Assembly (NCBI GenBank): GCA_030737835.1 | Contig: CM060848.1 | Location: 7,834,063-7,898,062 of the forward strand | DNA length: 64,000 nucleotides | Direction: 5' to 3' | Origin: Acorus gramineus | Lineage: Eukaryota > Streptophyta > Magnoliopsida > Acorales > Acoraceae | Notes under the pieces: model-generated | Seen by the model: the letters and a program-made list of their open reading frames with translations, nothing else | Told to the model about the DNA's origin: nothing | Databases searched by the model: none | Translations under genes and position numbers: made by a program | Shown here: in pieces, positions 10,588 through 47,081 of the stretch | Position numbering within the stretch: the stretch's first letter is position 1 | Layout: each line of letters opens with the position of its first letter

Positions 10588-10635
10588 TGAGGGGTGAGGG
10601 TGAGGGTGTGGTGGGTCGGCGATGTAGCGACCCAC
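10588..10635 (+). other. G-quadruplex-like tract plus stem-loop in LTR A1
   Basis: Five G3-4 runs with TGA-type spacers (GGGGTGAGGGTGAGGGTG) are followed directly by a perfect 8-bp stem, GTGGGTCG (10611-10618) with CGACCCAC (10628-10635), around a 9-nt loop. The same arrangement recurs in the other long LTRs of the window with different but still pairing arms. Confidence 0.75.
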
Positions 10636-11163
10636 TGGATTGTGTAGTTCCTGCCACTTTGAGGCTTGTTTAATTATTTGTGGTTGATATAAATTGTGAT
10701 GCATGGGTTGTGCTATTCACTGAGCGTGTGGCTCACCCCTCACATAATTTTTCTCCAGTTATCACTGAGTCGGACTTGAAGGAGGAGCTCCCCGAGAGAC
10801 TTCATCAGTAGCGGAGCAGCGCCACGTCCCGCGAGTGTTAGAGGCCATTAGCATCCTTTCTTTGATTGTATGTATTATATTTCCGTGCTTGGGCACTCGT
10901 TTGTATATTACTTGGATGTATTTGTGTATATTGGCTCTCACAGGACAGTTGATTATGTATCGAGTCTGTAGTATGTTTTTGAATTACAGACTCAGTCTTT
11001 TAGCTTCCGCTATCTGTGTATATATCATGTCAGCCTTGCTTTCGTCTGTGTTGTCATTTTAGTTGTTGTTTAGAGTATTTTATTGATCTCCTGTATAGAC
11101 TGCTGATATCATGTATACACTTGCCGCGTCCCGGGAACGGTCGCCCTGGGGCGTGACAGATAT

Positions 11164-11760
11164 GATCAACTTCCATTTACATAAAAGGATTGTCGTAATT
11201 TCCTCAGTAAAGTAAGACGTATCGAGCTTGGGAAAGGCGATGCGGAAGCACTCCTTCAATATTTTAGTAGGCAGCAAGAAATAAATTCTAGTTTTTTTCA
11301 TAGGATTGATTTGAATAGCGATGGTCGTTTGAAGAGTGTTTTCTGGGCAAATGCAAGATGTAGGGCTGCATATCAGTATTTTGGTGATGTGATCTCATTC
11401 GACACGACGTATTTGACAAACAAATACGCAATGCCATTTGCCCATTTGTTGGCGTAATCCACCATGGACATTCTATTTTATTAGGTTGCGGCTTGCTAGC
11501 CAATGAGACGATAGAGACATACGTATAGCTTTTCAAGGCTTGGTTGGTGTGAATGGGGAACTGTCCCCCTCAAGCGATAATCAATGACCAATGCAAATCC
11601 ATCGGGGGAGCCGTTGAAAAAGTGTTTCCTAATGCAAGACATCGTCTTTGTCTCTGGCATATCTTGAAAAAAGTTCTTGAAAAACTTGGCATGATACATA
11701 TACTATTATCATCAATTCATCGACTTATAATATATATCTTCTAGAGCTTTCATAAATTAT
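11164..11760 (+). pseudogene. MULE transposase core (second coding piece)
   Basis: After the GATAT duplication the coding frame resumes with RRIELGKGDAEALLQYF, then [17 protein letters not shown] and [19 protein letters not shown], which contains the first catalytic Asp region (the FDTTY block). Further on come AIINDQCKSI with the second Asp, and FPNARHRLCLWHILKK, the CLWH block typical of MULE and FAR1-family transposases. Several frame changes and stops interrupt it (about 11164-11300 and 11450-11550). The third catalytic residue lies after the following intron. It is decayed but clearly the same gene as 7671-8205. Confidence 0.85.
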
Positions 11761-11794
11761 TCATCGTGCAGCTAGTCCATGTTTCACATAGTGT

Positions 11795-11915
11795 ATGTCC
11801 TTCCTAAAGCGTATACTGCTTTATTATAGCGTATACGTTTTTTAATGCACACATACGTGTTTAACATAGCACATACCTTTTTATCACAGCACATACCTTT
11901 TTATCATAATATATA
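11795..11915 (+). repeat. Intronic GCGTATAC/GCACATACC motif array
   Basis: Between two transposase exons, about six variants of (A/C)ATAGCGTATAC lie in 120 bases: AAAGCGTATAC, TTATAGCGTATAC, AACATAGCACATACC, ATCACAGCACATACC and weaker forms. All are in the transposase sense orientation. Confidence 0.7.
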
Positions 11916-11940
11916 TTATAATAAGTTCAATTTGTGAATC

Positions 11941-12105
11941 AGGGTGAAAGATTAAAAGTCTTTCAAAGATCAACTTATGAATCTAGTTTATGATTGTCTC
12001 ACCGTAAATGAATTTGAGGAGAGATGGGATAAAGTGATGGATGTATATGGTCTTCAAGAAAATACATGGTTGTCTTCTTTCTACGAGGACCGAGAACGTT
12101 GGGTG
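11941..12105 (+). pseudogene. MULE transposase third piece, cut by solo LTR A2
   Basis: This encodes NLVYDCLTVNEFEERWDKVMDVYGL and then WLSSFYEDRERWV, the segment of FAR1/MULE transposases just after the catalytic core. It stops at the GGGTG target duplication (12101-12105) of LTR A2. The next codons (PVYIRDTFWEGMSTTQ) resume at 15796 with no base lost, so A2 entered a frame still close to coding. Confidence 0.88.
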
Positions 12106-12647
12106 TGTCACGCCCCGGGCGTCCCCGAGACGCGGCAAGTGTATATAAAATATCAGAATCTACACAGGAGGTCAATAATATATCATACACAAGCAACCAA
12201 CATGACACACAGACAACAAAAGCAGGGCTGACATGATATATACACCAAATGCGGATAACTAAAGACTGAATCTGTAATCAAAACACACTACAGACTCCAT
12301 ACATAATCACATGTCCTGTGAGAGCCAATATACATACAAAGACATCCAAATACAACCAAATGCGTGCCCAAGCACGGAAAATAATACATACTGGCACAAG
12401 GGATGCTGATAGTCTCTGCAACTCGCGGGACGTGGCGCTACTCCGCTACTGATGAAGTCCCTCGGGGAGCTCCTCCTCCAGATCCAACTCAGATGACACT
12501 GAAGAAAAATATTGTGCGAGGGGTGAGCCACACGCTCAGTGAACGGCACAACCCATGCATCACAGACAATATTGACCACAACCAGATAAGTCTTAACATC
12601 CACTACCACATTACCAAAGCCACAAAAGATAACAAATCCTCAAACTA

Positions 12648-12838
12648 GTGGGTCGCTACCGCCAACCCACTACACCCTCACCCTCACCCTCAATGGGTGA
12701 CCAAGGATATTGGGACTAACTGCACAGAACCAGCGGGTCACTTCAGCCAACCCGCTACACCCTCACCCTCACCCTCAGGGGTGACCAAGGATATTGGGAC
12801 TTACAATCCAGTGGGTCGCCACATCGCCGGCCCACCAT

Positions 12839-12869
<31 letters not shown>

Positions 12870-12975
12870 ATAAGTGACCTAGGATGTTGGGACTTAACGG
12901 GCAGATAATCATCCATACACAATCCTGTGGGTCGCCGCATCGCCGGCCCACCATACCCTCACCCTCACCTCTCAA
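12648..12975 (-). repeat. Four-fold tandem G-tract plus hairpin units in LTR A2
   Basis: Four units of about 80-120 bases each hold a hairpin (arms at 12648/12665, 12733/12750, 12811/12828, 12927/12944), a CCCTCA-repeat tract and a GTGACC..GG.TATTGGGACT-type linker. Unit 1 has arms GTGGGT/ACCCAC and unit 2 has GCGGGT/ACCCGC, a paired change that keeps the stem. A1 has one such unit and A3 has two. Confidence 0.75.
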
Positions 12976-13874
12976 CAGGTGACCTAGGCTCTTGGGACTG
13001 GCTAGGGTGTTGGTCACCCTTGGTCCACCGATAGTCTCTCCTCACTCCGTAGGTCGTTTGGCCACTCCCACGTTCAGCACAGTCCTTCTACCAAATCAGG
13101 AGGCGCCTACTACTGGGAGCCCCTGCACGGGACAACCTGTCTAACGCTGAGGTAGTCTCTACACGGATCCAACGAAGGGAACAGAACAGCCTATCCATCG
13201 CATATGATCCACTCGGATCCGCAGACAGCACATCATAACAACACTAATGTTCTGAATTCCTCAGAACCCACCAGGGCGCATAACTAAGATGCGGGGAAAC
13301 ATGCATAAGGTTATAATAGGGTGGAATATCGTTGGGGAAAGAAACTCGGGAGGGCAGCGTGAGTTCCCGTTATAGGACACCCCGACAACCAAACAAGGAA
13401 CACGGTGTACCCTAACCCGGGTCTCACCGCTGTCCTCGCAAGGCCCCTCCCCAATAATATTCACTATAACATGCAATTTTAACGAATACTAGTATTTAAT
13501 TTAATAAATAAACTAGTAGGGCACATGCATCGGTCGGGCTTCCTAACATGGAACCAGGGGACATGCTGCATGGCTCATACACATATCCTAAGGGTGCAAG
13601 TCCCTAACATGCAAAGTCTAGGGTAACATGCATTCTACATTTAAATCATGCTCGCATGATATACATATTACACATGCCAATATCTATCCATGGTGCCCCA
13701 GGAGAGGTCGGTATACGCCCAAGTGCGTATAACACCTCTCTACTGGGTTGGATTGTCCCACTCACCGAAGTCCGGGTCGTCGCGCGACCGCTCGCCAAGA
13801 TCTGCAAGACAGGCATTTATACGGTGAGTAAAATCCACAATTACCCCAAAATACATTTAAAATACTCTAAAAAT

Positions 13875-15060
13875 ACCCAACACCCGGACAAACGTACATA
13901 CGGCACGTACGCACGCTAGCCCGAGCACTCCGGCTCACTCCCGAACCCACCGGGCAACCGCACGCACGGCCACCCGCCTCGGGCGCACAGCCGAGCCCCG
14001 GCCCGCGCGCCCGAACAGCCTGCCGAGCATCTGCCCGCAAGCCCCAGACACACTGCACGCCCGGGCGCACGCACGCGCCCGCCCGTGCGCACCGCGCGTC
14101 CGGCCCTAGGTGCACCCGCACGCATCGCGCCCCCGCGCAGCGCCCGCACGCACCCCCCGCCTGCACTGCGCCCCAGCGCAGCGCTCAAGACTGCCTGCCG
14201 CACGCCCTTGTGCCCCGCGCAGCACCCGCGCGCGCCCCGCGCACACCCCGCGCACACCACGCGAGCACGCCACACGCCCCGCGCGCCCAGCGCCTCGCCC
14301 CGCGCGCACCGCCAGCTCCGCCCCGCGCGCACCCTGCGCGCACCCTGCACGATGCCCCGCAGCGGTGCCCAGCGCCCAGCGCCCCAGCGCCCAGCGCCCA
14401 GCACCCTCGGCCAGCACCCGGTACCCGCGACCCAGCGCCCAGCACCCGGGACCCTCACCCAGCTTCCACGCGCACGCCCGCGCAACACGCGCCCAGCGCG
14501 CCTGGCAGCACGCGCCCAGCGCGCCTGCCAGCCTGCCCGCGCTGCTGCCCGCGTTGCCTGCCTGCGCGCGTCGCCGAGTGGCCCGAGCACCGCTCGCCTG
14601 CACGCCAGGGGCACTGCCCGCCTGATGCCCGAGCACCCCTGCCCTGCTCGCCTGCGCGCCCAGCCTGCTCGCCCGGCCTGCCAGCGCGCACAGCCACTGC
14701 CCGCAGCCAGCCTGCACTGCACACCTCCCTCTGCACCCCCCGAGCGCACGCCCGCGCGCGCGCACCCGCGCGCACGCGCTCGCGCGCCCAGCAAACTGGT
14801 GCACCTGCTCCCAGCCTACCCAGCTAACCCTGCCAGCCTGCCCAGCGCGCACGCCCAGCCCTGCTGGCCTCCAGCGCCAGTCGAGCGCCCGCACGCCCAG
14901 CCCTGCTGGCCCCCAGCACCGCCCGAGCGAACGCACGCGTGCACGCCCGCGCGCGCGCCCGCGCCAACCGCTGCGCCTGCACCCCGTGCGCTGCTGCCCT
15001 GCCCGAGACAGCAGCCCTGCCAGCCCGAGCTGCAACCCTGCCAGCCCGAGCTCCTCTTCC
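13875..15060 (-). repeat. Expanded CpG-rich domain of LTR A2
   Basis: About 1.2 kb of C-biased (plus strand) low-complexity GCGC/GCCC repeats, ending at the low-coordinate side in the palindromic ACATACGGCACGTACGCACG segment near 13890-13920. Overlapping frames of up to 429 codons on both strands carry only Ala/Arg/Pro/Gly-rich translations and are not genes. Confidence 0.75.
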
Positions 15061-15795
15061 ACCCACCTCCGACCACCACCACAGCCTCCGACCGCCTCCC
15101 ACAGCCCTCCGACGGCCACCCACCGCCGCCAACCTCCACCCAACCCCATTTCCACCCTCCTAGCATACATCTAGGCAAGAAAGAGAGGAAAAAGAGGCTT
15201 ACCAAGGGGAGGAAAGGAAATCCGGTTGCTCTCCGCGCACCGAAACCTCTCCCAATAGGTTTCCAACGCCCGGATCTACCTCCACCATCGAGATGGCTCA
15301 AAACAGAGGCGAAGAGAGGGCGGACGGACGGCCAAAACTCGCCGGAATTGGGATTTGAAACCACCGGGGTGTAGATCGGGACCCGATCTACACTTCCTAG
15401 GTTTTAACTTTTAAGGTTTGAGGGGTCTAAGGGCCTCAAACGGAAGAAAAACGGAGGAGAGGAGAGAGAGGGCTCAAGGTAGGGATGATGAATAGTGACA
15501 TGAGATATTTCTCACCCACCTTATATAGCCGGGTCACTTAAAAACCCAGATACGCCCCGAAACTGCGAAATTTTGGAAACGTTACCGGAATTCAACGAAA
15601 TTTTCGTGAGAGGTCTAAAATGGCACCAGGACACCAAATATGCAGTTAGATTTCCAATCGGAGTCCTCTAACTCAGGACGAGAGCTAATAGTCCAAAAAT
15701 TAGCGGTACCGATCGGAAATCGAAAAAAACGAAAAACTGCCAGAACGCTCCAACGGTTACCAGCAGGTTAAAAGTGACACATATATAACAGGGTG

Positions 15796-17600: not shown

Positions 17601-17619
17601 ACACGTTTATACAATAAAA

Positions 17620-18042: not shown

Positions 18043-21000
18043 TGTCACGCCCCAGGGCGGCCGTCCCCGGGACGCGGCAAGTGTATACATGATATCAGCA
18101 GTCTATACAGGAGATCAATAAAATACTCTAAACAACAACTAAAATGCTAAAATGACAACACAGACAAAAGCAGGGCTGACATGATATATACACCAATAGC
18201 GGAAGCTAAAAGACTGAATCTGTAATCCAAAAACATACTACAGACTCGATACATAATCAACTGTCCTGTAAGAGCCAATATACACAAATACATCCAAATA
18301 CAATCCAAACTGGGTGCCCAAGCACGGAAATATATACATACAGTCAAGAAGGATGCTGATGGCCTCTAAAACTCGCGGAACGTGGCGCTACTCCGCTACT
18401 GGTGCAGTCTCTCAGGGAGCTCCTCCTTCAAGTCCGCCTCAGTAATCACTGGAGAAAAATATTATGCGAGGGGTGAGCCACACGCTCAGTGAATAGCATA
18501 ACCCATGCATCACAATTTATATTAACCACAAATAATCAAATCAAAAGCCTCAAAGTGGAAGGAACTACACAAATCCAGTGGGTCGCTACATCGCCGAACC
18601 ACCACACCCTCACCCTCACCCCTCAATAGGTGACATAGGATATTGGGACTTACTAAGCTGTTAATCATCCATACACAAATCCAGTGGGTCGCTACATCGT
18701 CGACCCACCACACCCTCACCCTCACCCTCACCCCTCAATATGGTGACATAGGATATTGGGACTGACTAGGCTGTTGGTCACCCTTGGTCCACCGATAGTC
18801 TCTCCTCCACTCCGTAGCCGCTTGGCCACTCCCACATTCAGCACAGTCTGTCCCAAATCAGGAGGTGCCTACTGATGGGAGCCCTCTCACGGGACGGCCT
18901 TTCTAACGCTGGGGTAGTCTCTACACGGATCCAACGAAGGGAATAGAACAGCCTATCCATACGCATATGATCCACTCGGATCCGCCGACAACACATCTCA
19001 ACAACTCTAATGTCATGAATTCTTCAGAATTCCTCCAGGGCGCATAACCAAGATGCGGGGAACATATATGATAATAATGAGGAAAAGAAACCTTGGGAGG
19101 GCAACCTGAGGTCCCGATATAGGACATCCCGATAACCAAACAAGGAACACGGAGTACCCTAGCCCGGGTCTCAATGTTGACCTCGCAAGGCCCCCTAATA
19201 TTCCCCAAGGCATACTAATAGACATATGCTCGCATTTAATTTAATAAATCAAACTAGTAGGACACATGCATAGGTCGAGGCTTTCCTAGCATGAAAACAT
19301 GGTGACAGGATGCATGGCTCTTACACATATTCTAAGGGTGCAAGTCCCTATCATACAAAGTCTAGGGTAGCATGCATACTACATATTAATCATGCTAGCA
19401 TAGATTACATATTAATTAGGTTAATATTTACTATGGTGCCCCAAGGGAGGGCGGTATACGCCCAAGTGCATATAGCGCCTCCCAACTGGGTTGGGTTGTC
19501 CCACTCACCGATAGTCGGGTCGTCGCGCGACCGTCCGTCAAGATCTGCAAAATAGGGTAATCAATTCGGTGAGTAAAATACACAATAAATACCAAAAATA
19601 CTCTAAAAATACACAACACTCGGGCAAACGTACATACGGCCCGTATGCACGCGAGCCCGAGCACCCTGACTCACCCGAACCTCCGGGCAGCCGTATGTAC
19701 GGCCACCCGCCCCGAGCGCCCAGCCGAGCCCCGGCCCGCGCGCCCAGCGCACTTCTGAGCCCCCCCCGCCCGCACGTTCAGACACTCTGTCGAGTCCCCC
19801 CCCGGGTGCACCGCGCGCTCACTGCGCCCCAGCGTAGCAACCCGCGCGCACACCCGCACACCCTGCGCCCCAGCACCTCACCCCGCTCACACCCCGCGCC
19901 CACCACCGGCTCGCCTCACCGTGCGCGCACAGCACGCCTGCGCCTCTGCGCAGCGCTCCGCACGCACGGCGCGCACGCGGCCCCGCGCGCAGCACCCGCA
20001 CGCGGCCCCGCGAGCACGGCACGCACTGCGCCTCTGCGCAGCGCCCCGCGCGCACGCCCGTGCACGGCGCCCAGCGCGCAGCTCCTGCACGCTCCTGCTC
20101 CACCCACGCGCACGCCCGCGTGCCATGCCAGACTGCTCTGCCCGCCCTGCCTGCCAACCCGCCTGCCTGTGCTGCCTGCGCTGCCAGCCTACCCGAGCCG
20201 GCCTGCCATCTTGCCCGAGCCACCCTACCACCTCTCCGACGGCCACCAATGGCCACCCACCCCACCAACAGCCACCCATACTCAAAACCACCCCCCTAAC
20301 ATGCATCTAAGCAAGAAAAGGAAGGGAAGGGGATCGGGAGCTCTTCGTGCACCGAAACACCTCCTCAAGGACCACCACCACCAAGATCTCCTTCAGCCCT
20401 CAAGGTGGCTGAAATCAGAGGAGAAAAGAGGGTAAGAGAAGGGGTCATACACGTGGGAACTCGAATCCCAGACCACCGGTGGATAGATCAGGAGCTCACC
20501 TTATCTTTCTCTTCTTTGGGTTTTGGGATCCAAGCCCTCTAGCTAGGTCCAAAGGTGGAAAAAGAGAGAGGGGAGAGAGAAATTTGGGTGGAGAAGATGA
20601 TGAATAGTGGGGGGAGAAGATATTTTAGCTCACTTATAAGTTAACTCCCACTTAGATTAGGCTAACTAGGTTTAATTAGGGTTTAAGAGAGGATTAGTGA
20701 GGTTTAAGTGAGCTTTGACTTGGGTCAACCCAACCACACAAAAAAACAAAAGGGGTTGACCAAGTCATGGGCCCACTTTGACCAAGTCAAGTCTCCCAAT
20801 GACTTCTCGCTCGGTCAAAACCCGGATACGCCCCGGAACTGTGAAATTCTGAAACGTTACCGGAATTCGATGAAATTTTCGTGAGTGGCTTGAAATGGCA
20901 CCAGGACACATAATATGCAGTTAGATTTTCAATCGGAGTCCTCAAACTCAGGATGATAGCCAACAGTCCAAAATTTTTGCGGTTCCGATCGAAAAACGAA

Positions 21001-21066
21001 AAAACTCAAAAACTGCCAGAATGCTCCAATGGTTACCAGAAGGCTAAAAGTGACACATATATAACA
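18043..21066 (-). mobile_element. Solo LTR A3 (3,024 bp), reversed, in the Ulp1 gene
   Basis: In reverse orientation the LTR runs from TGTTATATATG (ending at 21066) to GGGCGTGACA (at 18043). It is flanked by perfect CGTGC duplications (18038-18042, 21067-21071). It holds two G-tract/hairpin units (18577-18640, 18684-18735), a CpG-rich domain (about 19620-20220), and a W-box-rich 5' block (about 20719-20825). It is close in sequence to A1 and A2. It splits the exon carrying the catalytic His of the Ulp1 gene. Confidence 0.9.
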
Positions 21067-22368: not shown

Positions 22369-22370
22369 AA

Positions 22371-25300
22371 ATATATATAACATACAAGGCTGGTATAGCA
22401 ATGTTAATTGATAGTTCAACTGAAAAATGCGAAAGCATAAAAATATCAAAAAATCTGTAAACCAAAATGTTATTACAGACTCGAATACACAATCACTGTC
22501 CTGTGAGAGCCAAGTCTAGTCCAAATAAAATACAACCAGTGCAACACGCATGATTTACCAATACATACAACACTAGGACTGCTGACAGCCTTGTACTCGC
22601 CACAGCCTTGTACTCGCCAACTGCCAGACGGGACGCTTCCACGCACCTAAGACAACGCCACAGGAAAACTCCAGCTCCATGCCCAACATAGCCCCTGTAG
22701 AAGAAACAATGCGCGAGGGGTGAGCTACAAGCTTAGTGAGTGGTTGAAAACCAAACACCATCACAACAAATCAATACTAAGGCATTTTCCTTTCAAGGAA
22801 AAACATGGGTAGAAATCCAAAGGATAATAAGGTCACGCGACGGCGCGACCATGCCTCGCCCTCGCCCTCACTCCCGGAGGGAGGCTCTTGGGACACTCGG
22901 GGAGGAACAACTATTAACCATAACACATGGTGTTACTGGATAACGAGATACAACGAGTCCATCCGCTACGAGGTAGAGATACACTACGATACATGAAGCG
23001 TTAGGAGTAACATACCCAGTGTATACTCGATGGGTATAAAAGTCACGTGACTACACGACTTCAACTCACCCTCACCCTCACCCCTAAGGGTGACACGGGA
23101 CTGTTGGGAGAAATTCGTTTGCTCTACACCCTTCATCATCTGGTAGCCCTCTCCCAGGTAGCCTCTATCTAGTATACTCCCATGATTAGTATATCTATCG
23201 AACGCGTCGGTAGTACCTACAGGTGGGAGTCTTCTGTCAGAACAGCTTCAATGCCGGGCAGCTTCGACACGGATCTGGCAAAGGGGAGAACAACTCCATG
23301 CTCGCAATATCATTCGTTAGCCTTCTCCTAGATAGTCTCTACCTGGTATACTCCTATGATCAGTACATCTTGCTGCATGCATCGATACTACCTACAGGTG
23401 GGGGCCCTCTGTCAGGACAGCTACAACCCAGGGCGCTTCAACACAGATGATATTGGAAGGAAACATTTCATGTTCGCAATGCAAACCCAATGAAAAAATA
23501 ACTACTCTCGGTAATCACCTACCAATGCTATGGAATACACATAAACTCCCACACAGATGAGTTGCTCAGACTCAGGGAGTTACCTCAACTCTCGCACCAA
23601 AAATAAGCCCAAGGCATAACCAAATGAGCGGTTCATAAACGCGCCTAGCATGGGTAAGCCTAGCTTAATGCCATAACCACCGGCTTAACGAAACCGATAT
23701 GACTATGAATTCTCCTGAATTTCAATCGAGTGCATTACTCGGATGCAAGGGGGCAATTACATCGCTAGAACTCTAACTAATAAGGTACAACCCGATAGCG
23801 GGTCATACCCACGCCTATTACAGATAGGCCCAATTAGTCTAACATGCACATAATCATAATAGGAGAATTATACCGCAGTTATTTACGTGAACCACATGCA
23901 TGATAACATAATAATTAATTACAGGGGTACTCCCTAACATAGATAAAAAGCATAAACAATATATATGCAACATACATATCAGGTGTGGCCTAAATAATAT
24001 GCATACAAAGCCATTAATCATACAAGCATACAAGTGTACCCTAACATGCGTTGGATATCACCAACTTAAAGGGAAGGGTCAAGCGTGATCTCGCGCACTA
24101 ACAGGTGCATGCCAATATTCCCAAGCGAACCTGAGTCAAGTAGGAACCACATCTACTTACTCAGTTCGCACGATGAGAGAGGGCAAGAAAGAGCTCATCA
24201 TCTGTAGAAGTTGGTCATAGTTTTGCCCCTATAACATGGGCACAACAACTACACCACTCCCTCAAATCCTACGACCAAGGAATATTATGTATCCGATTAT
24301 TAACCCAGGCTTAATCAGGTTAGATATTACTATCATTGGGGGGGGGGGTAGTATTACAACCAAGACTACCTAAGGCATGCCGTATTCTATACATCCATAT
24401 AAATACAAAGAGATACATGCCCGTACAAGCAGGGCGCATGCAAACATAGTTATTCATTCATGAATACAATACATAGGCAAATATACGGTAGAATAGGGGG
24501 TTCTATGCAATATACAAGCTATACAAGCCTAGCATACAAAATATCTAACATAATATGGGTTAGACATGACCATACTACTCATCTAAACAAGTAGTATAGT
24601 TAGGGTGCCCCACGGATACGTGATGCATGACTACGTGCATCCAACGCTTCCCGAAGGGTTGGATCGAACCACTCACGTAACGACCCATTCATCGTGAGTT
24701 CCTCCAATGAAAGCTGCAAAACAAACCAATGATGCTCAATTAAAATATGAAGCCTCTTGATAGATGTACAAGCCTACTTCATGAAGACAATGACTCCTAA
24801 TATTTTCCACAACATGCATAACAACTCCTTGACACACAATCAAGCAAAACTGGTATATCTGCTGCAACCAGCCCTACTACTTGATCTCCACAGCACCAAA
24901 TACACATCCACAAATTATGAAATAAATCATACACGTTCTCTGACATGTTAGAATCATAATCTGTGCAGACATCATAACCTAATTTAGCCTCTACATGCCC
25001 GAAGTAAAATGTTTCTAGAAACTGATCAATTCCCACGCGAATCTGGATAGGCTATGCAAATTAGGTTATAACTTGCAACACAGATAATAAAATGATACCA
25101 AATTTCGTATATAGCATCTAGACACGTGGATGGTAATATCATATGAAGACATAATCCTTAGAATATGTCTCTAGGTACTAGTTCCACAAAGTTTTAAGAA
25201 CACAAATCTGCCTTACTACAATACAAAACCACCACCATTCATGCATAAACACAAACAATTCATGTGCAACAATTACCCATAACAATACTCCCCTAACAGC

Positions 25301-29460: not shown

Positions 29461-29612
29461 TAGAGCAAAAGGTTTTATCCCAAAAGTCCCTAGGGACACC
29501 CCTCCGGGGGCTAGGGTGAGGATGAGTTGGGAGTCACGTGGTCATGTGACTCTTATACCCATTGAGTATACTCTAGGTATGTTGCGCCTAACGCTAAAGG
29601 TATCGTTGTCAC

Positions 29613-32051: not shown

Positions 32052-35000
32052 TGTTGTGCTTGTGTCATTTGGAGCGCTCTGTTTGAAAATTTGGGTACAT
32101 AATTTTTTTTCCCTAGAAGTTATGTATTTTCAATTTGGTATTTGGATTTGATTTTGTTAAAATCCAAGATGAAGAGGTTTAAATATGATTTTATTATGAG
32201 ATGCCCAGTTTTGAGTTAGCTTTCGTACAGAAGTGGAATTAGATAAACTGGATTCTTGTAGTAAAAGTTATGGGTATTTTTCCAAGTATACCCCGGGGAT
32301 GGAAATTCTGGCAGCAGCCCTGTTCTATGTTTAGCTCTAATTTCGGAATAGCTAGAGAGATTATTTGATCTTGGCATAAACATGAAAGTTGTAGATAATC
32401 TTCTTAGCTTTCCATCGGACTTGGAATTGTGCAATTCGGAGCTATATCGAGGAAGTTATGGCTGTTCCAGTGAAGCATGCACAGAATTTCTAGTCAAAGG
32501 GCGACTAGGTCATTTTTCCTTAGATATTTGTGATAAATATCTTTCTTCCTCTCTCTCTCTCCCCTCCCAAACGTCCACGCCTATTTTCTGGTCTCTCTTT
32601 CTCTCCTTCAAAGCCCCCTAGGTGTTTGTGGAAATGCCTCAATGAGAATGAGATGGTGGTGGAGGAAGTGTTGGTGAGGGTTGTCTAAGTGTTGTTGATC
32701 CTTCTCTCTCAAGCCCTTTTCATGGATCCCCCCCCCCCTGATTTTCAGCTGAAGAAGAGGCTGAGGAGAGGACGAGGAGGTGGTGGTGGTGGTGGTGGCG
32801 GTTGAGGTGGTCGCGGGTGCGTCGAGGGCCCCTGAACCTCCCCCTTTTGTTCCCCCTCCAAGGTGAGCTCCTCCCCTTCTTTTCTTGGTTTTCTAGGCTT
32901 AAGGGGTTTTGAGAAAGTCATCCATGCTAGGTAGATGGGTTAGGGTGTGTGTGAGCGGTTGAGGAGGGTTAAAGTGAGGTTAGGACGGGGTGGGCGCGCG
33001 CTGGGCGTAGTCTGCCCGCGTGCGCGCGCAGGCGGGCGCTGGCAGGCGCAGTCAGGCGTGCAGACGCGGGTTGGCCCGTGCGCGCGGTGGCAGGCGCAGT
33101 CAGGCGTGCAGACGCGTTGGCCCGTGCGCGCGGGTGGGGAGTGTGCGCGCGGGTGAGCGGGTGCGCGCGGGAGTGTGCGCGCGGGAGTGTGCGCGCGGGT
33201 GAGCGTGTGCGCGCGGCAGTGCGCCTGGGCATGTGCCTGGGCGCAGGGCAGGGGACCAGTGCGCACGCGTGCGTGCGTGCGCGTGCTGGGGCGTGCGCGG
33301 GGTGCTGCGCGAGGGCGCGGGCTGGACGTGCAGTGCGCGCGGGCGCGCGCGAGTGTGCGTGCGCGTGCGGCAGCGCATCTGGGCGCGCGGGCAGGCGCGC
33401 GGCAGTGCGCCGATGGTGCTGGGGTGCGTGCGTGCGTGCGCATTCGTGCGTGCGCGTGCGGGGGGCCATGCGTGTGGCTGCCCGAGGGTTCGGGTAGGTG
33501 TCGGGGCACTCGGACTCGCGTGCGTACGTGCGTGCTCGCATGCGTGCGAGCCCGTATGCATGCTTGTTCGAGTATTGGGTATTTCTAATGATTTCTTTGT
33601 GTAAATTGTGTTGTTTCTCACCAGTTGGATGCCCCTACCTTGCAGATCTCGTCGGATGGGATGCGCGAGGTCCCGGGTCGTAAGGTGAGTGGTTTGATTC
33701 CAATCCCCCCCCCTCTCTAGGGATGCGCTCGACCCGCGTAGACACGCGTCGCGCATCGATGGGGCCCCCTAACTAATATGTAGATGTTTTGCATGCTAGG
33801 GATATACATCCATGTATCGTGTATAGAGGCCCGTACATGCCTGGACACCATGTCCTGTACTTAAAAGCCTTGATCTATGCATGATCAATATGATGTATCC
33901 ATGCCACCTTAGACTTGTATGCTAAGGATATGCACCCTAATGTTGTGGATAGAGGCCTATGCATCCTGACACCATGTTTTGATGCTAGGAAAGCCCTGAA
34001 CCTATGCATGTTCTCATTTAGTTTAATTTATTTAAATCAAGATGGGGTTATGTGATTATATTGTTGCAAGCATGCCTTAGAGAATATTATAACCTTCTTG
34101 TTATAATATATATCTCCCCGCATCTTGGTTATGTGCCGTGGAGGAATTCTTGAGAATTCATGTCATTAGAAATGTTAGGAAGCGTTGTCGACGGATCCAA
34201 GAGGATCGCATGCGTGTGGGTAGGCTGTTCTCTTCCCTTCGTTGGATCCGTGTAGTTGACATCCCCGGCGTTAGATAGGCTGTCGTGACAGAGGGCTCCC
34301 ATCTATAGGTACCTCCAATGCATCGGACAGTGCTGATCGTGGGAGTATACCGGGTAATCTACGGGGCGTGGGAGAGGCTACCGGTCGACCAAGGGTGATT
34401 AACAGCCTAGTCAGTCCCAAAAGACCATGTCACCCCTTCGAGGGTGAGGGTGAGGGTGTGGTGGGTCGGCGATGTAACGACCCACTGGATTGTGTAGTTA
34501 CTCCCGTTTGGGGACTATGACTACTTTAAGGTTAATATGAGGGTGTTGGTTGCTGTTATGCATGTGTGTGACATCTCGATGAGCGAGTATCGAGAGTGGT
34601 GAGTTGAGGAGATCGGGTTGTAGATACTACCCGGGAGAGGGTTATTGAATGATGTTGCAAGCGTGGAATCATTCTCCCCTTCGTTGGATCCGAGTAGTGA
34701 CAGCCCCGGCGTTAGACAGGCTATCCAGACAGAGAGCTCCCATCTGTAGGTACCTCCGATGTGTTCAGACAGTGCTGATCGTGGGAGTATACCAGGTAAG
34801 CTACGGAGCGGGGAGAGGCTATCGGTGGACCAGAGGTGTAGAGCAGTCTAGGTCTCTCCCAAAGTCCCAAGAGTGTCCTTTCAGGAGTGAGGGTGTGGAT
34901 GAGGCGAAGACGCGTCGCCTCGTGACCCATTCGTTGTTCGGCCGTTCCCATAGATGTTGGGTCCGGTCTCGTGATGGATGTTGAAGGACATCGATGGGCG

Positions 35001-35706
35001 ATTATCTAGATGTAGATGACCCAGTAGTCTTGAGTGGACCAGTAAATCCTGGTCTCTTCGACCGACGGCATGGTCTCTAGACCAGTAAATCCGGGTCTCT
35101 TCGACCGACGGTATGGTCTCTCCCATAAGTCCCAAAAGACTCCCTCCGGGAGTGAGGGTGGGGGTGAGGTTGGTCGCGCCGCCGCGTGACCCTGTTATCC
35201 ATTGGGTTTCTACCCATGTTTTTCCTTGAAAAAGGGAACTGATTATGTATTGAACTGTAGAATGGTGATTGGTTTCCAGCCCCTCACTGAGCTTGTAGCT
35301 CACCCCTCGCATACTATTTCTTTTCAGGGGCAGTGTTGGGCGTGGAGCTGGAGCTTCCTGTGGCGTGGTCTTATGGGCGTGGAGCGTTCTGCCGGCGGGT
35401 GGCGTGTGCGAGGCTGTCAGCATTCCTAGAGTCATTTATGCTTTGTAAATCGTGCATGTGGCATAGGTTGTATTTTCTTTGGTCTAGACTTGGCTTCCAT
35501 AGGACATTGATTGTGTATTCGGGTCTGTAATAATGTTTTTGATTTACAGACATTGTTATATATTATGCTTCCGCTTTTCAGTCAGTTATCATTATCTTGC
35601 TTTGCCGCCTTGTGTATTGTTGTTGGTGTCCTTATTGACCTCAGGTATTGATAGCTGATATTATATTTTATTATTGCCACGTCTCGGGGACGCCTGGGGC
35701 GTGACA
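32052..35706 (+). repeat. Element B 5' LTR (3,655 bp)
   Basis: Blocks in order: a family-specific 5' start (GGAGCGCTCTGTTTG); a CT-rich leader; a donor-like GTGAGC at 32863; a CpG-rich domain (about 32990-33580) ending in a palindrome; an acceptor-like CTTGCAG ending at 33645; a 39-nt exon-like piece and a second donor at 33685; a GGATCC/GTAGGTACC block, present twice; a G-tract plus hairpin (34440-34485); two further hairpins (34901-34921, 35172-35191); a tandem 50-bp piece (35035-35135); and the conserved 3' end. Confidence 0.85.
34440..34485 (+). other. G-tract plus hairpin, element B 5' LTR
   Basis: GAGGGTGAGGGTGAGGGTG followed by the stem GTGGGTCG (34461-34468) and CGACCCAC (34478-34485). 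Two more stems of different sequence follow in the same LTR behind shorter G-tracts: GAGGCGA/TCGCCTC (34901-34907, 34915-34921) and GGTCGCG/CGTGACC (35172-35178, 35185-35191, one G-U pair). Confidence 0.75.
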
Positions 35707-35713
35707 ATAAAGA

Positions 35714-38397: not shown

Positions 38398-41300
38398 TGT
38401 TGTGCCTGTGTCATTTGGAGCGCTCTGTTTGAAAATTTGGGTACATAATTTTTTTTCCCTAAGTTATGTATTTCCAATTTGGTATTTGGATTTGATTTTG
38501 TTAAAATCCAAGATGAAGAGGTTTAAATATGATTTTATTATGAGATGTTCAGTTTTGAGTTAGCTTTCGTACAGAAGTGGAATTAGATCAACTGGATTCT
38601 TGTAGTAAAAGTTATGGGTATTTTTCCAAGTATACCCCGGGATGGAAATTCTGGCAGCAGCCCTGTTCCATGTTTAGCTCTAATTTCGGAATAGCTGGAG
38701 AGATTATTTGATCTTGGCATGAACATGAAAGTTGTAGATAATCTTCTTAGATTTCCATCGGACTTGGAATTGTGCAATTCGGAGCTATATCGAGGAAGTT
38801 ATGGCTGTTCCAGTGAAGCATGTGCAGAATTTCTAGTCAAAGGGCGACTAGGTCTTTTTTCCTTAGATATTTGTGATAAATATCTTTCTTCCTCTCTCTC
38901 TCTCCCCTCCCAAACGTCCACGCCTATTTTCGGTCTCTCTTTCTCTCCTTCAAAGCCCCCTAGGTGTTTGTGGAAATGCCTCAATGAGAATGAGATGGTG
39001 GTGGAGGAAGTGTTGGTGAGGGTTGTCTAAGTGTTGTTGATCCTTCTCTCTCAAGCTCCCTTTTGCATGGTTTTCTCCCCCCTGATTTTCGGCTGAAGAG
39101 GAGGCTGAGGAGACCGAAGAGGTGGTGGTGGTGGCGGTTGAGGTGGTCGCGGGTGCGTCGAGGGCCCCCGAACCTCCCCCATTTGTTCCCCCTCCAAGGT
39201 GAGCTCCTACCCTTCTTTTCTTGGTTTTCTTGGCTTAAGGGGTTGTGGGAAAGTCATGCATGCTAGGTAGATGGGTTAGGGTGTGTGTGAGGGGTTGGGG
39301 AGGGTTAAAATGAGGTTGGGATGGGTTGGGCGCGCGCTGGCAGGCGCAGTCGCGCGCGCAGCGGTGAGCGGGTGCGCGCGGGTGCTGGCGCGAGCGGGGG
39401 TGCGCGCTCGAGCGTGCTCGCGCGCGGCAGTGCGCCTGGGCTTGTGCCTGGGGGCGGGGCAGGGGACCAGTGCCCGCGCGTGCGTGCGCGTGCTGGGGCG
39501 TGCGCGGGGTGCTGCGCGAGCGTGCACGGGCGTGCGGCAGCGCGTCGGGCGGGCAGGCGCGCGGCAGTGCGCCGATGGTGCTGGGGTGCGTGCGTGCGTG
39601 CGCATTCGTGCGTGCGCGTGCGGGGGGCCATGCGTGTGGCTGCCCAAGTGTTCGGGTAGGTGTCGGGGCACTCGGACTCGCGTGCGTACGCGCGCGCTCG
39701 CATGCGTGCGAGCCCGTATGCATGCTTGTCCGAGTATTGGGTATTTCTAATGATTTCTTTGTGTAATTTGTGTTGTTTCTCACCAGTTGGATGCCCCTAC
39801 CTTGCAGATCTCGTCGGATGGGATGCGCGAGGTCCCGGGTCGTAAGGTGAGTGGTTTGATTCCAACCCCCCCCCCCTCTCTAGGGATGCGCTCGACCCGC
39901 GTAGACGCGCGTCGCGCATCGATGGGGCCCCCTAACTAATATGTAGATGTTTTGCATGCTAGGAATACACATCCATGTATCGTATATAGAGGCCCGTACA
40001 TACTTGGACACCACGTCCTGTACTTAAAAGCCTTGATCTATGCATGATCAATATGATGTATCCATGCCACCTTAGACTTGTATGCTAGGGATATGCACCG
40101 TAATGTTGTGGATAGAGGCCTATGCATCCTGACACCATGTTTTCATGCTAGGAAAGCCCTGAACCTATGCATGTTCCCATTTCGTTTAATTTATAAGCAT
40201 GCCTTAGAGAATATTATAACTTTGTGGTTATAATATATGTCTCCCCGCATCTTAGTTATGCGCCCTGGAGGAATTCTTGAGAATTCATGACATTAGAAAT
40301 GTTAGGAAGCATTGTCGACGGATCCAAGAGGATCGCATGCGCGTGGGTAGGTTGTTCTCTTTCCTTCGTTGGATCCGTGTAGTACAGCCCCGGTGTTAGA
40401 TAGGCTGTCCTAACAGAGGGCTCCCATCTGTAGGTACCTCCGATGCGTCGGACTGTGCTGATCGTGGGAGTATACCAGGTAAGCTACGGAGCGGGGAGAG
40501 GCTACCAGTGGACCAAGGGTGATTACAGCCTAGTCAGTCCCAAAAGGCCCATGTCACCCCTTTGAGGGTGAGGGTGAGGGTGTGGTGGGTCGGCGATGTA
40601 ACGACCCATTGGCTTGTGTAGTTACTCCCGTTTAGGGACTATGACTACTTTAAGGTTAATATGAGGGTGGTGGTTGCTGTTATGCATGTGTGTGAAATCT
40701 CGATGAGCGAGTATCGAGAGTGGTGAGTTGAGGAGATCGGGTTGTAGATACTACCCGGGAGAGGGTTATTGAATGATGTCGCGAGCGTGGAATCGTTCTC
40801 CCCTTCGTTGGATCCGAGTAGTGACAGCCCCGGCGTTAGACAGGCTATCCTGACAGAGGGCTCCCATCTGTAGGTACCTCCGATGTGTTCGGACAGTGCT
40901 TGTCACACCCTAGGGCGGCCGTCCTCGGGACGCGGCAAGTGTATACATGATATCAGCAGTCTATACAGGAGATCAATAACATACTTTAACAACAGCTAAA
41001 ATGACAACACAGACAAAAGCAGGGCTGACATGATATATACACAGATAGCGGAAGCTAAAAGACTGAGTCTGTAATTCAAAAACATATTACAGACTCGATA
41101 CATAATCAACTGTCCTGTGAGAGCCAATATACACAAATACATCCAAATAATATACAAACGGGTGCCCAAGCACGGAATATAATACATACAATAAAAAAGG
41201 GATGCTGATGGCCTCTAACACTCGCGGGACGTGGCGCTGCTCCGCTACTGATGAAGTCTCTCAGGGAGCTCCTCCTTCAGATCCGACTCAGTGATAACTG

Positions 41301-44099
41301 GAGAAAAATATGCGAGGGGTGAGCCACACGCTCAGTGAATAGCACAACCCATGCATCACAATTCATATTAACCACAATTAATTATTCAAAGCCTCTAAGT
41401 GGCAGGAACTACACAATCCAGTGGGTCGCTACATCGCCGACCCACCACACCCTCACCCTCACCCTCCAATAGGTGACATAGGATATTGGGACTGACTAGG
41501 CTGTTAATCACCCTTGGTCCACCGATAGTCTCTTCTCCACTCCGTAGGCCGCCTGGTCCACTCACACAATTCAGCAAAGTCCGAACCCAAATCAGGAGGT
41601 GCCTACTGATGGGAGCCCTCTGTCAGGAAGGCCTGTCTAACGCTGGGGCAGTCTCTATACGGATCCAACGAAGGGAAAATAAACAGCCTATCCACACGTA
41701 TACGATCCACTCGGATCCGCCAACACCGATCTCAACTTATAAATGTCATGAATTCTTCAAAATTCCTCCAGGGCGCATAACTAAGATGCGGGGAGACACA
41801 TATTATAATAACAAGGTTATAATATTATCGGGAAAGGAAACCTTGGGAGGGCACCATGAGGTCCCGATATAGGATATCCCGACAACCAAACAAGGAACAC
41901 GGAGTACCCTAGTCCGGGTCTCAACGCTGACCTCGCAAGGCCCCTTATAATATTATCTAAGGCATGCTAGAATATACCATAAGTTCGCATTTAATTTAAT
42001 AAATTAAACTAATAGGACACATGCATAGGTCGAGGCTTTCCTAGCATGAAAACATGGTGTCAGGATGCATGGCTCTTACACATATCCTAAGGGTGCAAGT
42101 CCCTAACATACAAGGTCTAGGGTAGCATGCATACTACATATTAATCATGCTTGCATAGATTACATATTATACAAGTTAATATTAAACTATGGTGCCCCAG
42201 GGGAGGACGGTATACGCCCAAGTGCATATAGCGCCTCCCTACTGGGTTGGATTGTCCCACTCACCAATACCCGGGTCGTCGCGTGACCGTCCGTCAAGAT
42301 CTGCAAGACAGATATTTAACACGGTGAGTAAAATACACAAATACACACAAAATACACAAAAAATACCCAACACTCGGACAAGCATACATACGGCCCGTAC
42401 GCACGCGAGTCCGAGCACCCCGACTCACCCGAACCCCCGGGCAACCGTCCGCACGGCCACCCGCCCCGAGCGCACAGCTGTGCCCCAGCTCGAGCGCCCA
42501 GACGCACTGCCGAGCCCCCTGCCCGCATGCCCAGACACGCCCGCGAGCCCAGACACACCGCATGCTCGGACGCACGCACGCGCGCCCGTGCGCACCGCGC
42601 TTCCAGCCCCCGGATGCACCCGCACGCACTGCGCCCCAGCGCAGCGCCTCGCGCGCACACCCGTCCGCACTGCGCCCCAGCGCAGCTCCCCTCATGCACT
42701 CCCCGCGTACTGCGCTCCCCTCATGCACCCGCACCACCCGCGTACTGCGCCCCCTGCACAGCACCCGTGCGCACGCCCACGCGCACGCGCGCGTGCCCTG
42801 CCAGCTAGCCCGACAGCACGCCTTCCCAGCGCCTGCCAGCCTGCTCTGCCTGCCTGCCTGCACTTAGGTGAGGTTTGACCCTAGTCAACCCAACCACACT
42901 AAAAGCCAAAATCAATTGACCAAGTCATGGGCCCACTTTCACCAAGTCAAGTCTCCCAATGACTTCTCGCTCGGTCAAAACCCGTATACGCTTCGGAACT
43001 GCGAAATTCTGAAACGTTACCGGAATTTGATGAAATTTTCGTGAGTGGCTTGGAATGGCAACAGAACACATAATATGCAGTTATATTTTCAATCGGAGTC
43101 CTCAAACTCAGGATGATAGCTAAAAGCCCAAAATTTTAGCGTTTCCGATCGAAAAATGAAAAAAATTGAAAAACTGCCAGAATGTTCCAATGGTTACCAG
43201 AAGGTAAAAAGTGACACATATATAACAGTGGGAGTATACCAGGTAAGCTACGGAGCGGGGATAGGCTACCGGTGGACCAGGGGTGTAGAGCAGTCTAAGT
43301 CTCTCCCAAAGTCCCAAGAGTCTCCTTTCAGGAGTGAGGGTGTGGATGAGGCGAAGACGCGTCGCCTCGTGACCCATTCGTTGTTCGACCGTTCCCATAG
43401 ATGTTGGGTCCGGTCTCGTGATGGATGTTGAAGGACATCGATGGGCGATTATCTAGATGTAGATGATCCAGTAGTGTTGAGTAGACCAGTAAATCCGGGT
43501 CTCTTCGACCGACGGTATGGTCTCTCCCCATAAGTCCCAAAAGACTCCCTCCGGGAGTGAGGGTGGGGGGTGAGGTTGGTCGCGCCGCCGCGTGACCCTG
43601 TTATCCATTGGGTTTCTACCCATGTTTTTCCTTGAAAAAGGGAACTGATTATGTATTGAACTGTAGAATGGTGATTGGTTTCCAGCCACTCACTGAGCTT
43701 GTAGCTCACCCCTCGCATACTGTTTCTTTTCAGGGGCAGTGTTGGGCGTGGAGCTGGAGCTTCCTGTGGCATGGTATTATGGGCGTGGACCATTCTGTCG
43801 GCGGGTGGCGTGTGCGAGGCTGTCAGCATTCCTAGAGTCATTTATGCTTTGTAAATCGTGCATGTGGCACAGGTTGTATTTTCTTTGGTCTAGACTTGGC
43901 TTCCACAGGACATTGATTGTGTATTCGGGTCTGTAATAATGTTTTTGATTTACATACATTGTTATATATTATGCTTCTGCTTTTCAGTCAGTTATCATTA
44001 TCTTGCTTTGCCACCTTGTGTATTGTTGTTGGTGTCCTTATTGACCTCAGATATTATATTTTATTATTGCCACGTCTCAGGGACGCCTGGGGCGTGACA
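38398..44099 (+). repeat. Element B 3' LTR, interrupted by A4
   Basis: The two parts 38398-40900 and 43228-44099 together give about 3,375 bp. The block order is that of the 5' LTR: donor-like GT at 39199, CpG-rich domain about 39325-39745, acceptor AG at 39806-39807, second donor at 39847, G-tract plus hairpin at 40563-40609. The CpG domain is shorter than in the 5' LTR (about 420 against 590 bases), showing that it changes length rapidly. Confidence 0.85.
40901..43227 (-). mobile_element. LTR A4 (2,327 bp), reversed, in element B
   Basis: The reverse complement runs from TGTTATATATG (at 43227) to the conserved GTGACA end (40901). It is a family A solo LTR with one hairpin unit (41419-41470), a short CpG domain (42370-42865) and a W-box block (about 42870-42970). 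The host flanks (AGTGCT left, GTGGG right) do not form a clean 5-bp duplication, and four host bases seen in the 5' LTR are absent at the junction. It is the innermost member of the nest. Confidence 0.85.
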
Positions 44100-46344
44100 T
44101 GTCACGCCTCCCTCTCCCTCTTGTTTGTGTGTGTGTGTGTGTGTGTGTTTTGAAGGAAAAGAAGGAGAAGAAGAAGCAAAAGAAGAAGAGAAGTGAAAGA
44201 GAAGGGACACACAAAGGTGTGTAAATGTGTTGTTTGTAGTGATTGTTGATTCCCTTCTCTTAGGCTCCCTCTCATGCTCCCCTTTTGCCCCTGATTTTCA
44301 GCGAAGTAAGGCTGAGGAGGTGGTGGTGGTTGCGGTGGTTTTGGTGCGCCAAGAGCACCCAAATACCTCCCCTTTTCTTTCCCCTTCTTTGGTAAGCTCT
44401 CCTCCTCCCTTATCTATGTTTTAATGGTTGTTAGGGCTGTTAGGGTGATCATGAATGCCATGCATGTGGGTTTGGGTGTGTGTGAGGGCTGTGGAGGGGG
44501 TGGGAGAGATCTGGGCGCGCGCGCGGGGCCATCTGCGCACGTGCGCGCAAACGTGCGCACGCAGAGGGGTGCTGGCGCGCGCAGTCGGGCGCACCCGCTT
44601 ACGCGCAGGCGAGTGAACGTGCGCGTGAGGAGCTGGCGCGGGCGCGCAGTGCGCGCGAGTGTTTGCTGGCGGGACGCGCAGTGCGCGCAGGCGCGCGCGA
44701 GTGTGCGCCGCGCGTGGCAGCGTGTCTGGACGCGCAGATGGCCGCGCGGCAGTGTGCCAGGGGGTGCGAGGGCGCGTGCGCGCGTGCTTATGTGTGCGTA
44801 CGCGTGCGGGGGCCATGCGTGTGGCTGCCCGAGGGTTCGGGTAGGTGTCGGGGCACTCGGACTTGCGTGCGTACGTGCGTACTCGCATGCGTGCGAGCCC
44901 GTATGCGTGCTTGTCCGAGTCTTTGGCATTTCTAGTAAATTCCATGTATATTTATGTAGTTATACTCACCATATTGAATGCCCTTGTCTTGCAGATCTTG
45001 GTGAACGGTCACGCAACAACCTGGATTGCATATTAACCATATTTGCATGTATATGTTATTATTGGGCTTGCTAGGTTGCATCCATGCCATGTTAGACCTA
45101 ACATGTTAGGGTTATACATCCTAGTACCATGTGTAGGGACCAATGCTTGTTCATGCATCATGTCCCATGTTAGGATAACATTTGATTCCTGCATGTACCC
45201 CGACCTTGCCTAAGTATACCCTTAGCTATCTATGAAAAGCATAAGTGTAAGCATGCCCTAGAAAATATTATGACCTTGTTATTATATTATTTAAATGCTT
45301 CCATGATGAATTCCTTGTGTATTTATTATCCATGTTATATGCTTAAGTTGAGCCTCAAATCATGCCTAATGAATTTAGGCAAGTGTATGACCACTTATGG
45401 GGGTCATACTTGGCAATTGTCACTATGAATAATATGTTTTCCCCGCATATGAGTTATGCGCCCTGGAGGGAATTCTTGAGAATTCGTTACCATATCGGTG
45501 TTTAGTAACCGATGTCGACGGATCAAGGAGGATCGTATCCGCAAGTGTAGATTGTTTTCTCCCCTTCATTGGATCCGATGTAGGAACTCCCCGGCGTTGG
45601 GAAAAGTTGTCTTGACAGAGGACTCCCATCCGTAGGTACTACCGATGCAATCGGGAACGTACTGATCGTGGGAGTATACCAGGTAGAGGCTACCCGGGGA
45701 AAGGGCTACCAGTGGACCAAGGGTGTAGAGCAGTCTAATCTCTCCCAAAAGTCCTATGTCACCTCTAAAGGGTGAGGGTGAGGGTGTGGTGGGTCGGCGT
45801 CGCTACGACCCACCAATTTGTGCAGTTACTCCCATCTTAGGGAGTTTAATGATTTTTTAAGGTTAAATATAAGTTGTGTTGCATGGATTGTACCATTCAC
45901 TAAGCGTGTGGCTCACCCCTCGCATATCTTTTTTCTCGAGTTGTCGCTGAGTCGGATCTGAAGGAGGATCTCCCTGAGGCATCGCACCAGTAGCGGAGCA
46001 GCGTTCGCGTTTTGGGTCTTGCGAGTGAGAGGCCATCAGCATCCCCCTTTTTTTCCTTGTATGTATTGTTACTCGTGGTTTGGCACAATACTTGTATGTT
46101 TATGTCTTTGTTTTATATTGGCTCTCACAGGACAGTTGATTATGTATTCTGGTCTGTAATATGTCTTTGAATTACAGACTCAATCGTTAAGCTTCCACTA
46201 TATGTATATATATTATGTCGGCTACATTGTTAATTGTGTTATTACCTTCAATGTTGTTTAGAGTCTTTTATTGATCTCGTGTATGGACTGCTGATATTAT
46301 ATATATTTGCCATGTATCGGGGACGGCCGCCCTGGGGCGTGACA
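44100..46344 (+). repeat. Element E 3' LTR, second part
   Basis: Continuation after element B. It includes a GT microsatellite (44127-44149), a GAA-rich leader, a donor-like GTAAGC at 44392, a CpG domain (about 44505-44930), an acceptor-like CTTGCAG ending at 44994, a G-tract plus perfect hairpin (45775-45813: GTGGGTCG 45789-45796, CGACCCAC 45806-45813), and a conserved 3' end before the ATCGT duplication. Confidence 0.8.
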
Positions 46345-47081
46345 ATCGTAGTGTACCTCTACCTCATAGCGGAAGGACTTGTTGTACCATGTTAAGTCTA
46401 ACACTTGAGGTATCGTAGTGTATCACTATCTCGTAGCTGTTAGACTTTTTGTAAACTATTATCTAGTAACACCATGTGTTATGGTTAATAGCTTATTTCT
46501 TCCCGATTGTCCTTTGAGTTTCCCTCGGGAACGAGGGTGAGGTTGGTCGGGCCGCCGCGTGACCTTGTTATCTGTTGGGTTTTCACCCATGTTTTCCTTG
46601 AAAAGAAATTGCCTTGTCATTCAATTGTTGTATTGGTGCTTGGCTTCTTGCCACTCACTAAGCTCGTAGCTCACCCCTCGCATATTGTTACTTCCACAGG
46701 GACGGTGTTGGGCGTGGAGCTGGAGCTTCCCTATGGCGTGGTCTTGCGTGCGTGGAGTGTCGTGTTCGGCGATTGGTGAGTGCGAGGCTGTCAGTAGTCC
46801 TAGAGTCAGGTATTTGTTAATCGTGCGTGTTGCACAGAATGTATTTGATTGGACTAGACTTGGCTCTCACAGGACGATGATTGTGTATTCGAGTATATAA
46901 TAATGTTTTGGTTTATAGACTTATTGATACTTTTATGCTTCCACTTTTCAGTTAGCTATCATTTATCTTTGCCTTGCCACCATGTATGTTGTTGTTGGAG
47001 TCTTTGTTGACTTCAGGCATTGATAACTGATATTATATATATATTGCCACGTCTCGGGAACAGCCGCCCTTGGGTGTAACA
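46345..47081 (+). repeat. Element D 5' LTR, last part
   Basis: It resumes D's LTR after the ATCGT site, carries a G-tract and a GGTCG...CGTGACC hairpin (46524-46563) and the CTCACTAAGCTCGTAGCTC block, and ends GGGTGTAACA. Confidence 0.8.

Follow-up and report, generated by a model that had tools for sequence, protein, structure and literature searches.

In retroviruses, packaging signals lie 3' of the major splice donor and only RNA that retains them replicates. How plant long terminal repeat (LTR) elements apportion their RNA to translation, splicing and replication is to our knowledge largely open, as is the nature of the signals that single out the genomic RNA. In the parts of earlier papers cited here, stem-loops were linked to conservation where the R region of LTRs is long (Benachenhou et al., PMC3601003), plus-strand G-quadruplex motifs are already known from plant LTRs (Lexa et al., PMC3902901), and plant LTR elements are described as generally intron-less apart from named exceptions, the term "packaging signal" being absent from the corresponding text of this last source, a review (PMC12786077). 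Here we describe a tract-and-hairpin block carried by LTRs in a 64,000-nucleotide (nt) stretch of Acorus gramineus DNA (assembly GCA_030737835.1, contig CM060848.1, positions 7,834,063 to 7,898,062, forward strand; hereafter the window) and elsewhere in the same genome. No description of this block, or of introns in plant LTR leaders, was found among the titles and abstract openings of the matches listed in the literature searched, which is weak evidence of absence.

The block unit is composed of a AGTCCCAA box, TCACC(C), a (GGGTGA)n tract and a hairpin, SL2. In the LTRs read, one to five such units stand in tandem, mostly ~80-105 nt apart, and the block lies mostly ~540 to 900 nt upstream of the LTR end. 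The tract and arms described in the original prediction were recovered at 8/8 positions (five arm pairs), as with GAGGCGA at 34901, GGTCGCG at 35172 and GAGTCAC at 29531. The accompanying statement that the arms differ almost completely was too strong: by inspection, the usual arms of the two LTR groups distinguished here, the main class and family A, have a common GGTC/GACC core. An additional potential pairing, SL1, which joins the first tract repeat to the upstream TCACC(C), had not been noticed earlier. We tentatively propose, with rather less than even confidence, that the block acts in cis as an RNA element which unspliced genomic RNA must keep. In unspliced leader RNA it would mark or safeguard the genomic RNA, via packaging or via export of unspliced RNA, and by analogy with the logic of retroviral packaging signals RNA lacking the block would not replicate. 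Packaging, dimerisation, pausing and translation had been listed together as possible roles, and any choice among them is inferential. We put packaging or export first, by a small margin, because the hairpins stand in tandem and, in the manner of retroviral packaging signals, follow donor-like sites.

The genome scanned comprises 398.6 Mb in 137 contigs. The sampled loci came nearly all from contig 1; the remainder were those of the window, on contig 2, and of five short pieces of other contigs. The tract pattern GGGTGAGGGTGAGGGTGA was found at 3,197 overlapping places genome-wide and its reversed control at 13, an abundance far above chance, and the primer-type site TGGTATCAGAGC follows 3,224 LTR ends (reversed control 0). 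The LTR start was located in 24/41 LTRs (19 main class and 5 family A, 18 of these 24 being measured for spacing), giving lengths of 2,656-3,701 nt. A domain search of one element showed protease, reverse transcriptase, RNase H and integrase in that order in the pol frame. In this element, the integrase zinc domain scored above its cut-off and the core below (22.9 bits against 32.6), with a Chromo match just below its cut-off (22.1 bits against 25.1). The host element is taken to be a plant Ty3/gypsy retrotransposon, probably of the chromoviral kind.

Two intron-like segments were recognized in the LTRs. By eye, the donor-like GTAAG[CT] of segment 1, mostly after CCTTG or CCTCG, was present in 15/19 main LTRs and 0/5 family-A LTRs; the acceptor-like TTGCAG, followed by a 36-39 nt exon-2-like piece and GTGAG, in 23/24 LTRs; the donor-like site of segment 2 in 23/24; and its acceptor-like site after GCTCACCCC in 24/24. 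Upstream of the first acceptor stands CTCAC, CTTAC or CTAAC, branch-point-like according to what we take to be the consensus. Genome-wide, the intact segment-1 acceptor occurs at 7,209 places and the usual form of the second acceptor, GCTCACCCCTCGCA..CAGT, at 14,172. Exact removal of segment 1 at its splice sites was detected at 21 places (union of two junction patterns; reversed controls 0); both halves of the first pattern are present in 1/19 unspliced LTRs and those of the second in 11/19. All of the five junctions that were read showed the exact joint and GTGAGT at the start of segment 2, one with an altered base before it. Two pairs of junction places lie 5,123 and 5,088 bp apart and presumably represent the two LTRs of one element each. 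Together, these results show that segment 1 is a real intron, spliced from some reverse-transcribed RNAs. The ~5.1 kb between members of these pairs (C78:713390/718478 and C2:7693223/7698346) compares with ~8.0 kb between tract copies in an intron-bearing array (C1:17396022, 17404028 and 17412017), a spacing that suggests a shorter element without intron 1 in both LTRs.

Exact removal of segment 2, in contrast, was not found with the patterns used, either in the main class (two patterns) or in family A. The halves of the main-class patterns are nevertheless present in 14/19 unspliced main LTRs (18/19 for the relaxed pattern, the last pattern letters being outside that count). Fisher's test on 18 segment-1 against 0 segment-2 junctions gave 7.6e-6 for copies that are not independent. 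A further pattern search in this series returned 4 matches, 4/4 of which proved unspliced when read. A search for junctions of exon 1 to exon 3 was poorly designed and was discarded; its matches with letters shown were unspliced CCCCAG or CCTCAG sites. Copies without segment 2 not being found fits the block as a mark of genomic RNA, because loss of segment 2 removes the block. Its predicted place between exon-like pieces was borne out, as it lies inside segment 2, bounded by donor-like and acceptor-like sites, and this place is weightier than a reading of the sequence could show. The last block lies 166-190 nt upstream of the segment-2 acceptor-like site in 14/18 measured LTRs, for segment lengths of 1,052-1,712 nt, a constancy that could come from shared descent. 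A more far-reaching proposal is that each LTR contains two introns and houses the tandem hairpin element in the second one, which would restrict replication to RNA retaining that segment and separate genomic from spliced RNA in a retrovirus-like way wholly within the LTR; we regard it as doubtful.

The same observations bear on an unlikely but serious alternative, splicing control, in which the tract, with a GGTGAG donor-like core in each repeat, and the hairpin would serve as decoy donors or as a silencer keeping segment 2 unspliced. The near-fixed distance between block and acceptor-like site inside the segment speaks for it, as does the loss of segment 1 but not, as far as found, of segment 2; a splicing silencer would also fit the absence of segment-2-less copies. 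However, in predicted folds the branch-point-like CTCACCCC pairs weakly with the tract, the mean probability being 0.14 over 56 main LTR ends and 0.19 over 17 of family A.

For the proposed role in genomic RNA, the question is whether the hairpin pairing is selected. Main-class blocks were aligned with MAFFT without structure information. Excluded from the 193 distinct blocks were 35 assigned to family A, of which at least one (window-51229) was misassigned, and 6 without a hairpin; after trimming there were 126 distinct main rows, and one gapped row was removed. The degenerate copy L036_p1164 was left out of the 56-row event test and of the G-U/A-C test given below. A tree built without the stem columns yielded 9 compensatory double changes where 0.47 were expected, and 0/200 null runs reached 9; one of the nine in this larger set sits in the degenerate copy. 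With 56 non-redundant main rows (<95% identity), 9 double, 26 kept and 10 broken events were observed against null means of 0.4, 14 and 29, and none of 300 null runs reached 9 doubles. When the partner was slid by 1-3 columns in this set, 0 or 1 double events were seen. Over 5 trees, partner columns co-changed 5.5-7.9 times as often as independence predicts and non-partner stem columns 2.1-2.4 times; since the partners exceed the non-partners, linkage explains part, not all, of the co-change. An R-scape-style covariation test, its null simulated on a tree, gave E=0.004 for one SL2 pair (G-C to T-A) when only the 16 pairs of the two proposed helices were considered (trimmed alignment). The summed SL2 score was 116.8, for a null mean of 0.5, a standard deviation of 28.8 and a maximum of 121.5 in 400 runs, at least one null run thus being higher. 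Finally, main-class hairpins were more stable than shuffled sequences (median z -3.4, 97/125 rows below -1.5, windows of ~32 nt). The compensatory events and the partner columns support the conclusion that SL2 pairing in the main class is kept by selection.

The direction of stem changes bears on which molecule carries this pairing. On 6/6 trees (a first tree and five from column resampling), 33-40 single transitions in Watson-Crick stem pairs left G-U in the sense RNA and 13-14 left A-C (p 0.008 to 0.0003); in the first of these trees the stem C-to-T excess stood at 22 to 7. Mutation bias hardly accounts for this excess, because outside the stems the C-to-T rate was below that of G-to-A on 4/6 trees. 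Single-strand DNA or a cruciform would hardly give such strand asymmetry. G-U being favoured over A-C on the sense strand, RNA therefore fits better than DNA, and the selected pairing is better explained as acting in sense RNA.

Several results weigh against the proposed role. No hairpin pair came below E=0.05 in the strict test over all pairs (best 0.67 in the untrimmed alignment of 149 rows and 0.72 in the trimmed one), and the non-partner 5'-arm columns 64/71 outscored every hairpin pair (E=0.02 untrimmed, 0.125 trimmed); linkage between subfamilies is therefore present. A blind scan covering the final 600 nt of 56 main and 17 family-A LTR rows, with partners no more than 150 nt from each other, had no SL2 pair among its 45 best, and the sole match below E=0.1 was in family-A columns 117/121 (E=0.04), spanning 4 nt and distinct from SL2. 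The 17 family-A rows, of mean identity 0.90, had no listed SL2 pair among the best of that scan. Family-A hairpins were no more stable than shuffles (median z -0.3; 32 distinct sequences in 49-nt windows, at least one misfiled main-class block included), a value not strictly comparable with that of the main class because the shuffles were mononucleotide and the windows differed in length. Family A thus adds little structural support. At least 6/193 distinct blocks have the tract without SL2, and the copies are related and possibly recombining, so that events are not fully independent. Outside the stems, the C-to-T rate exceeded G-to-A on 2/6 trees and A-to-G exceeded T-to-C on 6/6, and the A-to-G part of the asymmetry is weaker evidence because of this non-stem excess. 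Lastly, the label "intron 2" was given from splice-like signals.

Many of these points would suit a block without present function, namely an old palindrome duplicated within LTRs whose apparent covariation would reflect common descent, recombination and the exchange of units. Such an origin would account for the empty strict tests, for stem pairs that are mostly near-invariant (they hardly vary in the trimmed alignment), for the co-change of non-partner stem columns and for the frequent tandem duplication. We hold it to be less probable again than splicing control, as the higher co-change of true partners, the near-disappearance of double events with slid partners (0-1 against 9) and the strand asymmetry all speak against it. 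The original prediction of selection for structure, to be checked by R-scape and Rfam, is accordingly upheld in part. It stands for the main class, through compensatory events above the phylogenetic null, the slid-partner control and the partner columns; it fails for family A and over all pairs. No Rfam family matched at gathering score across the whole window.

The position of the block in the transcript leaves room for other functions. Among the 19 main LTRs, 14 TATA-like matches fall in the 250-299 nt bin from the LTR start, and the block is probably in the transcript leader because it lies downstream of this TATA-like box. A role of the block in translation, polyadenylation or the pausing of LTR transcription would be compatible with its being structured, probably transcribed and roughly 2-3 kb 3' of the box, but we give this explanation little credence.

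As for the G-quadruplex, the conserved capacity expected of the tract was not observed. With four G3 runs and loops of 1-7 as the criterion, the tract by itself suffices in 29/193 blocks; 85/193 would have to borrow a GGG run from the following 30 nt, the place of the hairpin arm, and 79/193 qualify in neither way. In arm variants such as GTGGTTCG/CGAACCAC, the GGG run is broken and all nine pairs are retained in some rows. It is the hairpin that is kept, rather than the quadruplex. That a DNA or RNA G-quadruplex is the functional unit, on the model of the plus-strand motifs downstream of plant LTR promoters in the cited part of PMC3902901, is the least credible of the explanations, since the G-rich plus-strand tract does lie 3' of a TATA-like box as in that work but the run counts and some arm variants speak against it.

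The features located in the window are collected in Table 1. Some further observations concern the block and its surroundings. In three sampled LTRs (L033, L073 and L088), tandem units have the tract followed by TATGGATGTG repeats in the place of the hairpin, which the last unit retains. Within the exon-2-like piece (window 9778-9813 and others) lies a short inverted repeat, which reads GGTCG..CGACC in main-class LTRs and GGGA..TCCC in those of family A and may also covary. In main-class and family-A LTRs alike, the branch-point-like CTCAC of the second acceptor (window 10722-10739 and others) is part of a small GAGC..GCTC hairpin. In one LTR (L017), intron 1, at about -2,900 to -1,640 relative to the LTR end, consists mostly of low-complexity, GC-rich sequence, poorly conserved among the 19 main LTRs. 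Closer to the LTR end, at window 10963-10992, an inverted repeat AGTCTGT..ACAGACT is possibly linked to polyadenylation. A coding role of the exon-2-like and exon-3-like pieces was dropped, exon 2 of several copies having a stop in the frame suited to exon 3 (by eye).

Table 1. Coordinates of the block, its LTRs and other features in the window.
Feature	Position	Strand	Remark
PORR (plant organelle RNA recognition) gene	5529-6767		
Solo LTR, main class, start TGTTATATAGG, end GGGGCGTGACA	8206-11158	+	5-bp target duplication GATAT, by eye from flanks
Exon-2-like piece, between TTGCAG and GTGAGT	9778-9813	+	
Intron-2-like segment (GTGAGT to CTCCAG)	9814-10758	+	contains the block
AGTCCCAA box, unit start	10563-10570	+	found again in most blocks
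SL1: TCACC able to pair with the tract's first GGTGA	10580-10597	+	pairing nearly invariant, without covariation
(GGGTGA)n tract	10592-10606	+	
SL2 hairpin	10611-10635	+	arms GTGGGTCG 10611-10618 / CGACCCAC 10628-10635
Branch-point-like GCTCACCCC and acceptor-like site of segment 2	10731-10758	+	CACA in this copy, usual CGCA
Reverse LTR, four tandem blocks	12106-15790	-	target duplication CACCC, by eye from flanks
Four tandem units	12640-12965	-	tracts 12675-12689, 12760-12774, 12840-12866, 12956-12964; 5' arms GTGGGTTG, GCGGGTTG, GTGGGCCG, GTGGGCCG
Donor-1-like site, CCTTG/GTAAGC	15197-15211	-	
Reverse LTR	18043-21066	-	tracts 18607-18621 and 18713-18733; target duplication GCACG, by eye from flanks
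Tract and hairpin of AGTCGTGT / ACGTGACT type	23039-23083	-	tract 23066-23083
Short tract and hairpin GAGTCAC / GTGACTC	29514-29552	+	
Family-A 5' LTR	32052-35706	+	followed by tRNA-type primer site TGGTATCAGAGC
Main-type tract and hairpin	34442-34485	+	within family-A LTR
Family-A middle block	34885-34921	+	GAGGCGA / TCGCCTC
Family-A last block	35150-35191	+	GGTCGCGC / GCGTGACC
Block	40566-40610	+	GTGGGTCG / CGACCCAT
Block	41421-41464	-	GTGGGTCG / CGACCCAC
Block	45770-45814	+	GTGGGTCG / CGACCCAC

The block offers a short, repeated and testable candidate element with many copies, and the natural intron-loss copies reveal leader splicing from genome sequence. Like the packaging and dimerisation hairpins of retroviral leaders, it is structured, and if segment 2 is spliced it would likewise be kept only in unspliced RNA; unlike them, it belongs to a plant LTR element, has its units repeated within the LTR itself and is known here from sequence. 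The stem-loops in the cited part of Benachenhou et al. (PMC3601003) are retroviral, plant Ty3/gypsy LTRs being left unmodelled there as too variable in length. The plant LTR motifs of Lexa et al. (PMC3902901) resemble the tract in their plus-strand G-runs 3' of the promoter, and motif doublets are noted there; in contrast to those motifs, most tracts here do not have four GGG runs of their own, and their kept partner is a hairpin, none being described beside the motifs in the cited part of that paper. The mouse IAP and musD RNA transport elements, compared by description as given in the cited text of PMC12786077, are likewise structured RNAs acting on full-length retroelement RNA. Spliced integrated retrotransposed elements of human L1, in the cited part of PMC5860796, are also genomic copies derived from spliced leader RNA, whereas the present case concerns an LTR element in which the loss lies within the LTR and segment 1 is the only segment found lost. 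Finally, the intron-bearing plant LTR elements Ogre, EVADE and BARE, as presented in the cited text of PMC12786077, similarly have spliced and unspliced RNA; EVADE is spliced within its coding region, with loss of the protease part, whereas here the spliced segment is in the LTR leader.

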